Assembly (NCBI GenBank): GCA_019166125.1 | Contig: JAHTBO010000003.1 | Span: 252,985 to 316,984 of the forward strand | From: Alcaligenaceae bacterium CGII-47 | GTDB lineage: Bacteria > Pseudomonadota > Gammaproteobacteria > Burkholderiales > Burkholderiaceae_B | Direction: 5' to 3' | Length of the DNA stretch: 64,000 nt | Part shown: positions 12,590 through 18,108 of the stretch, in pieces | How the letters are laid out: the number at the start of each line of letters is the position of its first letter | Position numbering within the stretch: the first letter of the stretch is position 1 | Made by a program: the position numbers and the translations under genes | The notes under the pieces: model-generated | The model's database searches: none | What the model saw: only the letters and a program-made list of their open reading frames with translations | Told to the model about the DNA's origin: nothing

Positions 12590-13714
12590 TCAATGCACAA
12601 CGCTTGTTTCATTCACTTCCGACTTAACGTTGGATGTGACCACCGACAAGCATCGTCCCGCAGATGCCACTGCCTGGACAACTAAAGATCCCGGATGCCG
12701 CCAGTTACTATACCGATCTGCGGATGCAACACAGAAACTTGCTTGAATTTGATCAAGAAGCTCGGTATGGAAATTGCACTCCGAACCATGGTGAGGCAGC
12801 GTCATCGTGACAACTTCCTGCAGCAAAGTCCTGTAATGATTAAGAAACGCTCGACGCCGCCGACCGTTTCTCAAGGCCGCATCGCCTGTACCCAGCCATG
12901 CCACGCCGGCCTTTTCTGATTCCGAAAAGGTCGACGCTCCAAACTTGCCCAAATATTCGCTCTGGTGTTGGGCAGTCGGGACCGGCCCGGAGTATATACA
13001 CATAGAAGTGATGTTCAGATCAGGGCAGATCTTAATATAGGCATCTTGGAGATCTGAAAGGTGCGTTGTCAGCAACTCTAGGACGTATTTAGCGTCGCGC
13101 AACGAATTCTCGAGCTCCTCGAGCGTCTTATTTTGTCTTGCGGCGAGATTTTCCAAAAATGGTCTGGTTTCGGCCTCGACCGAGGGGTCAACGTATGGTG
13201 CCAATAGTCAGGCTGGCGGGGTGGCGTCACTCGTGCATACCATCCCGAGGCTGTCAGGCATTACAACGCTGCCATCGGGCTCACCAGGGAGAGTGGAATT
13301 GATAGATCCTGTGCCGACAAGGTTCCATGGCATATCACCATACAGCAGCCCAGCGCTATCGCCCGGACCGTCTCCTGATTCTTCTGGCCCCCTACTGAAT
13401 GGTGATCCGTGTTCAGGGTCGCCTGGTCGGACAATGACCTGAACCGCCAGCCCATTACCTTGGTTGAGCAGCCGCTCGACACCATTCAAGTGATCGGCAT
13501 GTGCATGAGAGATAAAAAGAATATCAAGTGGCTGCGGTGCTCCGACTAGCTTGAGATATGCATCAATCCGGGCGTCTCGCTGCTGAGCGTAACTGGTCAT
13601 TGCTCCGCAATCAACGACATATCGGAGCCAAGGTTCCTCGGCATGTGACAATTCACCTGTGTGAAAAAAGCCCTGGCCAACCGCGTACTGCGTTCGAGTG
13701 TTTCGTATCATCAT
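12590..13714 (-). pseudogene. MBL-fold hydrolase gene interrupted by an in-frame UGA
   Basis: Two consecutive open frames lie in the same reading frame, separated only by TGA (13210-13208) and one CTA codon. The first part (168 aa) holds the zinc motif HAHADHLNG (H70, H72, D74, H75). The second (204 aa) holds the C-terminal half of a ComEC-like metallo-beta-lactamase fold (AWLGTGDAAL, LPHHGS). Joined, they make a 374-residue protein with all domain parts. If Trp stood at the stop the sequence would read PPAWLLAPYVDP, so TGG to TGA is a plausible single change. It is either a recent nonsense mutation, a readthrough site or a sequence error. It follows the second MBL gene of the patatin/peptidase cassette by 127 nt. 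Confidence 0.75.
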
Positions 13715-13841
13715 CGCTTTCTATGCTCCCGTAATTTGACGGAACTCTTTACCCACGCAAGTCATACTCTGATTTCAGAGCTTGAACCTTTTCCGGCTGA
13801 ACATCTGTCGCGACAACACTTTATATCCTGCGTTCCATCCA

Positions 13842-15158
13842 TCAATCCTGACCGAAAAGCGCGTCAACGTACGCGACATTCCCTATGGCATCCGTGGCGA
13901 CAAGATGGGTGCGTTCGCGCAGTGCCGTGACCAAGGCGCGACGTGGCACTTCCGTGCCGATTCGCTCATCCCCGTGCTTGCCAGGCTTGGTGGACATCAT
14001 TGAGGTGATGGTCTCGGGCGACTTTGATGCACCCGGGACCCGATCATCGGGGAACCAGTGCTGCCATAGTGTCTTGGGCGTTGCGTTGCGGCTGCCATGG
14101 TGGCCCACCTTATACACATTGACACCGTGCAGCAGCTCAACAAAATCGGCACGCCCCAGCGCGTACTCCCAGTTCTCGATCTGTGCGTCGCCGGGGAATA
14201 GCAGCTTCTGTTCGCCGAACTCAAATAACAGAATCACGCTGGTATTATTCATCGCCTTGTCCAGCGAACGCACGATGCCCAGCAACCGCTCGCTTTGGGC
14301 ACGGCGCACGGCGTGAACGAGCCAGCGGGCCTCCGGCGATGCGCTCCCGCCAGTGACCTGCGGGTAGCCCTCAAACAGTAGCGCGTCCTCGGTCTCCCGC
14401 GCTTGCGCACTGATACCGAACGCCTGCGATTGCGCAAGCCAGAATTCATCCGGGTCGGCACTGCGTTGCCTCTTGATGGCTGCCGACTGCGTCACCGTGG
14501 GCGGACCAAGCACATGCACCTTCACGCCCGGCAAAAAACCCTGCAAGCGGGTGCGTTTGCCAGCATATACGTAATCGTTTCTTCCCATTTTGGCAAGGTT
14601 CTCTACAGCGCGCGCGTTGCCTAGATTGTCCTCGCCGAGGAAGGCGAGTTCTCGTATGACCGACGTTGCTCCTAGCGAGCGCTTCAGGCGTGGTATCTCT
14701 CTGTCCATGACTTGCTGGGAGATGACCTGCATGCGTTCAAGTGAGGCTCTACGCAAGGCCATGCCCTTGAAATGGGCTGGCGCAACTGCCTCGACTGGAA
14801 GATCCCGCTGTTCGGTCCATGGCTGAACCACCCAGCGTGGCTTCAGTGCGGCGATCACAACACCCGGACCATCCTCTTTGACGCCAGGGTCAAAGCCGGC
14901 AATGTGATCGGCGTGCCGATGGGTAGCGACCACTGCGAACGGATCCATGTTGACGGCCTGTCTGATGTCCTCGGCAATTTTTGCCAGCATTCTGGCTCGA
15001 TTGACTCCCTCTGGCGCCTCGGTCGAACCGAAGTCGATCAGCACATGACGTGCGGGGCTGGGTGCGGGGTAGCTGAAAGTCAGCAGAAAGCAGTCGCCGA
15101 ATCCGACTTGATACATGCGCACCCGCACGTGTGTAGGGGTAGAAGGCCGGCGCCTCAT
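13842..15158 (-). CDS. MBL-fold metallohydrolase (ComEC/Rec2-like)
   Basis: A 438-residue soluble metallo-beta-lactamase-fold protein. The motif THRHADHIAGF gives H80, H82, D84 and H85. A GDA segment (LLFPGDAQIENWEYAL) and KVGHHGSRNATPKTL follow, as in the MBL half of ComEC-type proteins. No membrane segments are seen, so it is a stand-alone hydrolase, possibly acting on nucleic acid or another phosphoester. Its ATG overlaps the peptidase stop by 4 nt (ATGA), showing translational coupling. The inserts between motifs make it longer than the typical stand-alone MBL. The substrate is unknown. Confidence 0.82.
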   Translation of the reverse strand: MRRRPSTPTHVRVRMYQVGFGDCFLLTFSYPAPSPARHVLIDFGSTEAPEGVNRARMLAKIAEDIRQAVNMDPFAVVATHRHADHIAGFDPGVKEDGPGVVIAALKPRWVVQPWTEQRDLPVEAVAPAHFKGMALRRASLERMQVISQQVMDREIPRLKRSLGATSVIRELAFLGEDNLGNARAVENLAKMGRNDYVYAGKRTRLQGFLPGVKVHVLGPPTVTQSAAIKRQRSADPDEFWLAQSQAFGISAQARETEDALLFEGYPQVTGGSASPEARWLVHAVRRAQSERLLGIVRSLDKAMNNTSVILLFEFGEQKLLFPGDAQIENWEYALGRADFVELLHGVNVYKVGHHGSRNATPKTLWQHWFPDDRVPGASKSPETITSMMSTKPGKHGDERIGTEVPRRALVTALRERTHLVATDAIGNVAYVDALFGQD

Positions 15159-16951
15159 GAGGTGATCCTGCGTTCAGAGCGCCCAGAGCTAAAGCCATAT
15201 AGTGCCCGCGCCCTATGCATGCGGGAAAAATATCCACGGCTGAATGCTTCATCACTTGCGTAATCGAAGAAACCCGATCGCGCCAGGTAGTCCAATCGTG
15301 CTTGCTGGCGCTGCACATCGGCGATGTTATTGCCAATACTGTATTTGAGTTGGCCGAATTCATCGAACACCAACACGCCACCACCATACAGTCGTACCTG
15401 GCGGTTTATCTGGATTTCAGCGGGGCGTTTCAACCCGAGCCCCCTCAACTCGTGGCCACGAACGGCAAGGACCTGCATGTAGTCCACCACCGTTTCCTGC
15501 ACCAATAAACCATCCGGTGCTACCCGCGCAATCGGACGCACAGCCTGAACGTTCGTACAGGCGGTGGCAGACAACTTCAAGGAATCAAAATTTTCCCACA
15601 GGAAACGGAACGCCTCGACAGGATCCCGTTGTAACTGTGCGAAATGAATATTCCGGTGCGACACGGATTCACCAAACGGCTTCCAGCAGCCTTCATTGTG
15701 CGCCCCGCTAGTCGGGTTCACGCCCCACAATGCGAACTGGGCGCGCACCTTGTCGCGGTAGCCGTATTTCGAATCGTCTGGTACGGTTTCCCGATCAGCG
15801 GTGAGCAAGGCGCTAAGGAAATCACCAAACTGCAGATCGGTAGGAGGCGCGTAGTCCAGCGCACGCAGGCACATGGTCAGCAGGTGCTGTGCGCCAGTGG
15901 CCCCTTCTTCGATGACACGGCCACCATCAATCAAGCCGCCTCCCGTGGACAACAGCGCGCGAATGCGCTCGCTCCATACGGTGAGGAACGCATTCATGAT
16001 CGCCGCGACCAGGATTTCCCCGCGTTGATGAGGTTCTTCGTAATCTGGATCGCTTAGCCATCGCCGGTTGGGCGTGAGCAGTACAGAACGCCGCAATGCG
16101 GTGGCCACGCCATTGGGAATCACATTACTCATCTGCTCAGCCAGGCCGAGTAACGCAGATTGCTTAAGAAACTGTGCATCAATTTGTGCTAGATCGACCA
16201 GTTTGCGCCCGTTATTGAATATCTTGGCGCTTTCGAACACTGCCTCGATCAAGCGGCCTTGGGACAGCACCGAGAGCAAAGCCACCAGATCGGCGAAGCC
16301 TTCGTGGAATCCAGCCTGATCGGCTGAGGACGGATCGATATAGCGCGGCCTGAGTCCGTCGAGCAGGGCGTGCGTGGTCTCGTGCGCCACCACGTCATGC
16401 GAGAGACAGGTATACACCGTCTGCATTTTGCCGATCGGAAAATAGCCAAAGCTCAGACTACGATCCTCGCGTGAATAGTACGCGTTGGCGTCCGCAAAAG
16501 CGTGCGGGGCAATATGCAGTTGATGGCCCGAGAACCCGAAGTTGACCCGGCGTCCCAGCGCCGTCTCGAAGGCGCCAATCACCTGCATGGCAATCGCGTA
16601 GACATTTTGTTGGTGAAAGGTCGGATCGGCCAAAAGTGTCGCATCCGACTCGCCTGCAAACGGATCGGCCCACGCTCTGGCCGACTCATAGCCGCCACGG
16701 CGGGGCAGATACAGACGGTCGCGCGATGCATCGTAATCAACGACTTTGATACGTGCACCACAAGGGCCTGGATGGATGGGCTCTGCAGTTATAGTAGCTG
16801 TCGCCGTTAAAATGCGACCGTCCTGAGCGCACACCGAGGGATCCTGGGCGACGATGGTAAGCTCGCGCTGAGGTGCAGATTCCCCGCGTGTTTCTGCCAG
16901 ATCGCGTTTACGCTGCGACCGGGGTTTACTCGTAGAGACAGCACCATTCAT
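15155..16951 (-). CDS. Gluzincin (M4-like) zinc metallopeptidase
   Basis: A 598-residue predicted zinc peptidase. The active site is VVAHETTHALLDG (H190, E191, H194), and the third ligand is Glu217 in FHEGFADLVALL, the spacing expected for thermolysin-like gluzincins. There is no signal peptide, so it is probably cytoplasmic, unlike secreted M4 enzymes. I chose ATG at 16951 because GGGAG lies about 7 nt upstream; the longer frame would run into the patatin gene. It starts 14 nt after the patatin stop and overlaps the MBL gene by 4 nt. The substrate is unknown; it could process a partner in this cassette. Confidence 0.8.
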   Translation of the reverse strand: MNGAVSTSKPRSQRKRDLAETRGESAPQRELTIVAQDPSVCAQDGRILTATATITAEPIHPGPCGARIKVVDYDASRDRLYLPRRGGYESARAWADPFAGESDATLLADPTFHQQNVYAIAMQVIGAFETALGRRVNFGFSGHQLHIAPHAFADANAYYSREDRSLSFGYFPIGKMQTVYTCLSHDVVAHETTHALLDGLRPRYIDPSSADQAGFHEGFADLVALLSVLSQGRLIEAVFESAKIFNNGRKLVDLAQIDAQFLKQSALLGLAEQMSNVIPNGVATALRRSVLLTPNRRWLSDPDYEEPHQRGEILVAAIMNAFLTVWSERIRALLSTGGGLIDGGRVIEEGATGAQHLLTMCLRALDYAPPTDLQFGDFLSALLTADRETVPDDSKYGYRDKVRAQFALWGVNPTSGAHNEGCWKPFGESVSHRNIHFAQLQRDPVEAFRFLWENFDSLKLSATACTNVQAVRPIARVAPDGLLVQETVVDYMQVLAVRGHELRGLGLKRPAEIQINRQVRLYGGGVLVFDEFGQLKYSIGNNIADVQRQQARLDYLARSGFFDYASDEAFSRGYFSRMHRARALYGFSSGRSERRITS

Positions 16952-16965
16952 GTGCGCTCTCCCGT

Positions 16966-18108
16966 TCAAGCCAGTGGCTGATCTGGGTATGGAAAAATGG
17001 GCTTTGGGGTATCTGCACGACACAAGCTACTGCACCAGCGGCGTATACCAGCGTCGCACACGGCATAGCCCCAGTTGATCAGGCGTTTTTGCTCGGTGTC
17101 GTTGAAAGCATCCAAGCGAGTACGCATGCTCGCTAGTTGCGTGATGGACTGTCTAGAGACCGGCAAAGCATCACCCAGCTCATAGTCGACAATCTGCGTC
17201 GTGATCCCCCAGTAGGTTCCCTTGGGGCCACCATCGGCTGGGTCATGCTCGTGACGCTGGAACTGGTCTATCAACCAGCGCTTGCGTGCGCCACGCGCCT
17301 GATCGGTCGCGATTTCGAAGGCGGCATGAAGCTGTGAAAACCAACCAGTAGCAGGGCGCTCTGCGTTCACAAAGGGAGCACCAGCGTCGCTGACCAGGAT
17401 GTTCGCGTACTTATCCCAGATGGGTTCCAGGCCCATATTATCGTAGGCGCCACCGTCCGTAAGATAAAGGCGCTGGGAAAAACGCTTGTCGTTGGTCAGC
17501 GTAGAGTAAGTGGTCGCTTCCCACTTTGCCTGACGAGTATCGATTTCCACGGGCGACAGGAACGGAGGAAAAGCACTGGATGCGGCGACTGCACGCGCCA
17601 GCGGAACATCCAAAGCAGTCCGCCCGATGCGGTAGTCTACGATCCGATTACGCGTAAGATGTACCAGGCGTCCAGTCTGGAGGTTGGTCGAGCAAAACGT
17701 AAAGCGTGGTCTATCTAGCGGCAACTGCGACAGCAACAACCCATCGAATAACGCACCGTCATACTTGCTAGCCAGCACGTCGCTCACGCGGCGAAACGGT
17801 GTCAGCAGGCCACCGATAATGGTTGGGGTATCAATAGTGTGGCTGCAAAACTTCCGGAGCACATCGGTGAGGCGCGCAATACGCTGCAGTGCGTCATCGG
17901 TGGGATGTCGCACCCAATCAGCGGCGAGCGCGCCGGCGACAATTGATCCTCCGGACACGCTGGAGACATGGCTGACTTGCTCCAGAACACCCGTTTCCGC
18001 CAGCCGCCGAAGCGAGCCAACATGGAACAGCGTCGCACGATAGCCCCCCCCTGACAGCGACAAACCAATACCGGATTCGCGTTTGCGGGGTTTGCGCGTA
18101 GCGTTCAT
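16966..18108 (-). CDS. Patatin-like phospholipase
   Basis: A 380-residue patatin-fold lipid hydrolase. The oxyanion loop is SLSGGGYRATLFHVG (18-31). The nucleophile is Ser52 in SVSGG, where the first Gly of the usual GxSxG is Ser. The catalytic Asp is D218 in LTDGGAYDNMG, so the Ser-Asp dyad is intact. It has no signal peptide or transmembrane helix and would act on membrane phospholipids from inside. Start is ATG with AAGGA 6 nt upstream. It leads the cassette with the metallopeptidase and MBL proteins. Patatins are known effectors of bacterial immune systems such as CBASS, but no nucleotide cyclase is seen nearby. Confidence 0.88.
   Translation of the reverse strand: MNATRKPRKRESGIGLSLSGGGYRATLFHVGSLRRLAETGVLEQVSHVSSVSGGSIVAGALAADWVRHPTDDALQRIARLTDVLRKFCSHTIDTPTIIGGLLTPFRRVSDVLASKYDGALFDGLLLSQLPLDRPRFTFCSTNLQTGRLVHLTRNRIVDYRIGRTALDVPLARAVAASSAFPPFLSPVEIDTRQAKWEATTYSTLTNDKRFSQRLYLTDGGAYDNMGLEPIWDKYANILVSDAGAPFVNAERPATGWFSQLHAAFEIATDQARGARKRWLIDQFQRHEHDPADGGPKGTYWGITTQIVDYELGDALPVSRQSITQLASMRTRLDAFNDTEQKRLINWGYAVCDAGIRRWCSSLCRADTPKPIFPYPDQPLA

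Follow-up and report, generated by a model that had tools for sequence, protein, structure and literature searches.

The window analysed here is a 64,000-nt stretch of contig JAHTBO010000003.1 from Alcaligenaceae bacterium CGII-47. On its minus strand lies a compact cassette of three genes, coding for a patatin-like phospholipase, a gluzincin metallopeptidase and a metallo-beta-lactamase (MBL)-fold protein, which we call MBL1. The patatin gene (16966..18108) has an ATG start and encodes 380 amino acids (aa), with catalytic residues Ser52 and Asp218 (PF01734, E 7.5e-20). It is followed after 14 nt by the peptidase gene (15155..16951, ATG at 16951), whose 598-aa product has a predicted thermolysin/M36 fold (residues 29-420) followed by a C-terminal extension (~430-598). 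An ATGA overlap joins the peptidase gene to that of MBL1 (13842..15158, 438 aa), a ComEC-like protein and probable pro-nuclease. These coordinates agree with the spacing and overlap given in a first-pass annotation of the sequence. That annotation had also described a tight cluster of four minus-strand genes; three of them do form such a cluster, while the fourth, a second MBL gene (MBL2), consists of two open reading frames (ORFs) 127 nt beyond MBL1. The GC content of the cassette is like that of the window (0.569 vs 0.573), giving no signal of a compositional island. As previously proposed, signal peptides appear to be absent, since hydropathy revealed no hydrophobic N-terminal stretch in the patatin, the peptidase or MBL1. 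Peptidases of the thermolysin/M36 family are typically exported by a hydrophobic N-terminal signal, and the window peptidase appears to depart from this norm.

The catalytic motifs noticed in the three proteins turned out to be conserved across aligned homologues, which were chosen from 120 matches listed per protein (among scored candidates, 6606/8000 were homologues for the peptidase, 7888/8000 for MBL1 and 7898/8000 for the patatin). In the peptidase, H190, E191, H194, E217 and D221 are invariant (51/51), and form an HExxH...E zinc site within a thermolysin-like predicted fold. The family comprises several thousand proteins, and is poorly covered by existing models: the window member matched no NCBIfam or PADLOC model at E 1 and gave only a weak M4 match in Pfam (17.9 bits vs a cut-off of 22.4). 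A Foldseek search with its model found no PDB match at E 0.001, and the M4/M36 fold was assigned to the predicted structure through a second look with VIA-align only. The patatin family preserves GGG in 119/119 sequences, S52-G53-G54 in 118/118 (S50 in 106) and D218 in 119/120, so that its nucleophile motif, S-x-S-G-G, is the family's own form and not G-x-S-x-G.

MBL1 matches PF00753 (E 5.6e-05) and, among PADLOC models, LmuA (E 1.4e-15, the best), PDC-M48B (6.1e-9) and Avs1a (7.5e-9); its NCBIfam matches all fall far under the cut-offs (Avs1a 4.7e-11, the best; 6A-MBL 7.7e-8; ComEC 1.4e-7). The motifs HxHxDH, GDA and KVGHHGS are kept in 54/54 aligned near relatives, the window protein included, and the top fold match of the predicted structure is ComEC. 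About 189 of the 438 residues have no ComEC counterpart, and AlphaFold2 (AF2) models two regions of the protein as candidate loops with low predicted local distance difference test (pLDDT) scores. Loop 1, a candidate gating loop, spans residues 121-140 (14739..14798, minus strand; AF2 blocks of pLDDT 61 and 47), and loop 2, a candidate protease site, spans residues 228-262 (14373..14477, minus strand; blocks of pLDDT 47-68). Within loop 2, R232, D235, F239 and W240 are conserved at 94-100% (54 sequences) despite the low pLDDT.

A genome scan with a peptidase alignment (A1) yielded 139 confirmed relatives, of which the best 80 were kept, making 81 loci together with the window; in addition, 51 plasmid records contained a relative, and 18 annotated loci from these were read. 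In 79/81 loci an MBL1-family ORF lies directly downstream of the peptidase gene on the same strand, and the two remaining loci are a contig that ends inside the peptidase gene (L032) and a 5.4-kb contig on which no MBL1 was seen (L056). In two loci one member of the pair is split over two ORFs (the MBL gene in L022, the peptidase gene in L013). Both genes were called in 76 loci; the gap between them is at most 20 nt in 70 of these, with a 4-nt overlap in 20. Each of the 30 plasmid records that match MBL1 also matches the peptidase. The peptidase and MBL1 are thus near-inseparable, and the core does not break up into singly occurring homologues. The two proteins also diverge together: identity-based distances, with shared genome ancestry left in, correlate at r 0.81 over 74 loci (0/1000 permutations as high), and for peptidase and patatin, likewise with ancestry included, at r 0.64 over 14 loci.

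The catalytic signature of the pair extends to distant relatives. In the plasmid loci the HExxH + E motif is found at constant spacing in 17/18 peptidases (L132 being the exception), and the MBL protein shows HxHxDH in 17/18 and HHGS in 14/18; the annotated MBL gene of L131 is short and has no HxHxDH. In L086, beside an MBL gene, Pfam places an S8 subtilase domain in front of the gluzincin as a protease-protease fusion, and the peptidases of L126, L127 and L131 are annotated as S8 and carry the same HExxH motif, the S8 part being known from the annotation.

The third gene of the cassette is exchangeable. A patatin gene adjoins the pair in 15/81 loci (14 of the 80 fetched, and the window), lying directly upstream (8 loci) or two genes upstream (1), directly downstream (4) or two genes downstream (1), or divergently (1). 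A Tle1/DUF2235 protein, from an unrelated family (PF09994, E 2.6e-65 to 3.2e-78 in four scanned members), adjoins it in 12 other loci, 11 times downstream and once upstream. One or the other is thus present in 27/81 loci, and in no locus are both adjacent, although in L050, where a patatin is adjacent, a DUF2235 gene lies ~3-4 kb past the pair. With 162 patatins in ~182 Mb (31 of these genomes), ~0.2 adjacencies within 1.5 kb would be expected in 80 loci, as compared to the 14 found. These counts put the three-gene part of the grouping beyond chance, and passive cargo or chance grouping was rejected for the patatin as well as for the peptidase with MBL1. In a tree of the peptidases (81 rows, a quick method that does not distinguish gain from loss) the patatin label changes 11 times, of which at least 7 are forced (shuffled mean 14.0; 9/500 as low); for DUF2235 the label changes 4 times (shuffled mean 11.4; 0/500 as low).

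Among the plasmid loci, 10/18 have a lipase beside or near the pair: a patatin in L085, L124, L125, L130 and L133, a DUF2235 protein in L084, L086, L122 and L129, and a PLD protein in L128. The lipase gene is on the opposite strand in L129, L130 and L133, and another annotated gene intervenes in L086 and L130. Other genes were also seen at this position. In L020, L062, L069, L079 and L081 the pair or its patatin is adjoined by a member of an astacin-like gene cluster (C10), with a Pfam match for L079 and L081, and a family of 600-660 aa (C46) follows the MBL or lipase gene in L023, L059 (13648-15630) and L074 (13129-14931). Two scanned C46 members gave no Pfam match; a further effector or sensor is possible. 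In L018 (4823-9439) the MBL gene is followed by a short ORF matching DUF2235 (E 1e-19) and then by HamA and HamB, which looks like a lipase gene in decay next to a Hachiman system. Among the remaining loci of the 81-locus set no further recurrent third gene could be named.

The cassette is patchily distributed. The peptidase was found at E 1e-20 in 3/200 genomes of the window's family and in 1/10 of its genus (the window's own), and at E 1e-40 in 6/398 genomes of the phylum. The 81 loci nonetheless span 12 named phyla, as judged from record titles that include many metagenome bins, and the phylum label changes 19 times on the peptidase tree. Conjugation is predicted for 25 of the 51 plasmid records that contain a relative; no near-identical copies were found on plasmids. 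Viral contigs and phage records yielded 2 relatives each, and viral carriage was set aside. The nearest matches of two flanking genes within the genus are just 44-62% identical, and a comparison with an empty site in the genus therefore led nowhere. In two loci the peptidase gene lies close behind a guaA-type gene (249 nt in L046, 6584-9730; 364 nt in L028, 4314-5891), and in L051 such a gene is found 6.2 kb upstream of the peptidase (the Pfam name comes from L046); the vicinity of this gene is a possible integration site.

Genes of known defence systems recur near the core pair, which shows no conserved link to a housekeeping pathway. We scanned neighbouring proteins against PADLOC models, counting families without scoring the completeness of systems; since a single protein can match many families, these totals are not gene counts. 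For 115 proteins of at least 80 aa within 4.3 kb of 20 loci (E 1e-8), 75 families were matched, with LmuB, CBASS cyclase, PtuA, PtuB, RmrA, QatD and mad2 among those listed. For the control, each of the 20 genomes contributed one 16-kb region; a set of 150/154 proteins encoded in the central part of these regions matched 13 families (mad2, mad3, mad8, RtcR-type, DEDDh, PDC-S48, MzaA, AriA and Csa3). A second set of 115/117 proteins of at least 180 aa from 27 of 51 eligible loci, with near-duplicates left out (E 1e-20), matched 88 families, HamA, HamB, cyclases, TRIP13 and SAVED-PDDEXK being among those listed; 90/100 further proteins from the same 20 control regions matched 4 (mad3 and RtcR-type).

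At the level of individual proteins, a census with 22 neighbour-protein queries found CBASS cyclases in L055, L057 and L065 (weakly in L076), LmuB in L015, L016 and L027, and, in L010, a protein whose N-terminus resembles a Pycsar cyclase. CBASS genes are present on plasmids in L085, L122 and L125. HamA and HamB occur together in plasmid locus L085 (PADLOC E 7.5e-146 and 0) and in L018 of the genome set (3.7e-111 and 0), and L124 has a DUF1837 gene with a DEAD helicase gene; in these three loci the HamA-type and helicase genes begin 114-322 nt past the MBL gene. L125 carries an AAA+HNH pair whose best model is the candidate PDC-M01, the AAA protein also matching PtuA (9.8e-161). A conserved protein of 1077-1098 aa (cluster C8) is encoded near the cassette in five rhizobial loci (L016, 6167-9463; L015; L027; L005; L080); in L084, which is the same record as L005, its annotation is DEAD/DEAH box helicase. 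In the window itself, neither the 22 neighbour proteins compared with its ORFs nor two fetched CBASS cyclases found a match; its genes outside the cassette were not scanned with PADLOC.

Of the mechanisms described so far, the closest to this pair is the gated pro-nuclease of PMC12799240: in late 2025, trypsin-like proteases and caspases were reported to activate MBL nucleases in bacterial immunity by cutting two loops of a ComEC-like MBL protein. The trypsin-like pairs in that paper belong to Hachiman (HamM), AVAST (Avs1a), Lamassu and DRT. They share with the cassette a ComEC-like MBL protein that exceeds the ComEC domain, an adjoining protease that co-diverges with it, and a location in defence loci (here in part of the loci). 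They differ in that their trypsin-like domain is fused to a defence enzyme, whereas the protease of the cassette is a stand-alone metallopeptidase of thermolysin/M36 fold, encoded upstream of the MBL gene and often accompanied by a lipase gene. The Canu (caspase-nuclease) loci, CanABC, as presented there, resemble the cassette in having a protease of another class upstream of an MBL pro-nuclease, and in their defence islands; the cassette in turn has no caspase, and a lipase in place of CanB. A caspase-family gene was found in one plasmid locus only, ~1.3 kb upstream (L088). Because its peptidase is a stand-alone protein of M4/M36 fold, we do not file the pair among the gated nuclease-protease pairs (HamM, Avs1a, canu); by analogy, it may work like them.

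The same paper suggests further protease partnerships, names co-evolution and blocking insertions as their hallmarks, and notes that homologues of the nuclease go together with proteases from "other diverse families"; as its searchable text leaves these families unnamed, we claim no priority for a pairing with a metalloprotease. The peptidase-MBL1 pair combines correlated divergence and possibly blocking insertions with a different protease chemistry, and has several unrelated lipases as frequent partners. In a literature search covering titles and the starts of abstracts, with subscription papers and supplements outside it, no paper on an operon of peptidase, MBL and patatin or DUF2235 genes was found. 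The PADLOC candidate PDC-M48 could be compared through its component PDC-M48B only, the one matched by MBL1 (E 6.1e-9); it differs from the cassette in that the window peptidase matches no PADLOC model and has an M4/M36 fold. CapV is a patatin effector of CBASS, and the cassette likewise encodes a patatin phospholipase and lies near CBASS genes in several loci; unlike CBASS, it has no cyclase among its genes, and the patatin is co-encoded with a peptidase and an MBL protein. A role as a CapV-type effector received no support, the window patatin reaching only E 0.049 with a PADLOC phospholipase effector model and the L085 patatin matching no such model at E 1e-5.

Taken together, we consider it an even bet (probability about 0.5) that the cassette is a compact, horizontally spread defence unit of the abortive-infection type, presumably directed at phages, with a protease-pro-nuclease core and a lipase. 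The peptidase would stay in the cytosol, held inactive until infection, perhaps by its C-terminal extension. Once activated, it would cut MBL1 in the loops around residues 121-140 and 228-262 and thereby free a ComEC-like DNase active site. The adjoining lipase (patatin here, Tle1/DUF2235 or PLD elsewhere) would add membrane damage, possibly under control of the same protease. The first-pass annotation had proposed that a protease gates the lipase; a gated effector stays plausible, but MBL1 is the better candidate for the gated partner, because it is the constant one and 54/81 loci have neither patatin nor DUF2235 beside the pair. We would extend the proposal only tentatively, and with some doubt, to an undescribed immune system found across phyla, with a cytosolic metalloprotease as its switch: by activating both an MBL pro-nuclease and an interchangeable lipase, the protease would bring about the destruction of DNA and membrane in a single cleavage event. 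If this is true, the known activators of MBL pro-nucleases, trypsin-like proteases and caspases, would be joined by metalloproteases. The cassette is a small, testable three-gene system.

Several observations weigh against such a defence unit. It is put forward from sequences and predicted structures, and the window peptidase stands alone, with no fused sensor. The conserved cut-site residues of the known pro-nucleases, Ile in HamM and Avs1a and Gly in canu (PMC12799240, searchable text), have no invariant counterpart in the two loops of MBL1, where the closest are I228 (55%) and G132 (61%; 54 sequences). HHGS is missing from the MBL proteins of L085, L124, L125 and L129, the first three of which are the clearest defence islands. 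In L018, L085 and L124 the HamA adjoining the cassette retains its GExK motif, so that the Hachiman genes look like whole, separate systems within the island, and a merger with Hachiman as in HamMAB is not favoured. The protein-level census marked 8/80 loci vs 0/20 control regions that were shorter than the loci, a difference that by itself is not significant (Fisher p 0.35), and two of the eight loci, L016 and L010, had supplied queries. The loci with neither lipase family at the pair also belong here, as do the numerous metabolic genes among the neighbours.

The last two points, with the naming of defence systems at a minority of loci, speak for an accessory module for metabolism or protein processing in environmental bacteria that has no defence role and serves, for example, lipid or storage turnover. 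We regard this as quite unlikely, given the patchy occurrence within genus, family and phylum, the share of plasmids predicted to be conjugative, and the recurrence of CBASS, Hachiman, Lamassu and Septu models in the neighbourhood. A cassette that acts in defence on membranes would give the same proteins other tasks: MBL1 would be a phosphodiesterase acting on phospholipid head groups, the lipase would strip acyl chains, and the peptidase would cut a host or phage protein or activate the lipase. This too appears unlikely, since ComEC stands 3 Z units above Pce in the fold match of MBL1, the sequence profiles that MBL1 matches are those of ComEC and defence MBL proteins, and the lipase is so often absent. 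A defence role of some kind, by the protease-pro-nuclease route or by this membrane-acting one, is probable. The match of the DUF2235 proteins to the Pfam family of type VI secretion phospholipase effectors raises the further thought of a weapon or self-toxicity module against other bacteria, with the Tle1-like and patatin lipases as delivered effectors. This is very improbable: the annotations of the 18 plasmid loci name no type VI secretion gene, and the three window proteins have, by hydropathy, no signal-like N-terminus.

The second MBL gene (12590..13714, minus strand) was dropped as a component of the cassette, contrary to its initial assignment. Its two ORFs (13208-13714 and 12590-13204) share one frame and are split by a TGA at 13208-13210. 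The related loci gave just two weak matches (E 0.002, L048 and L068), and when 274 genomes of the class were searched with the N-terminal piece (E 1e-12), the only match was in the genome of the window itself. Since the gene is both interrupted and rare near the relatives, the cassette is taken as three genes. In plasmid locus L146 the homologue is a single gene of 411 aa, to which the two pieces align at residues 13-77 and 202-404 only, so that the difference may exceed one codon. The relatives of MBL2 are a separate MBL family, and on plasmids they lie near rep/par genes (L146, 5398-6633; L148), in L146 also near a HipA-type toxin gene.

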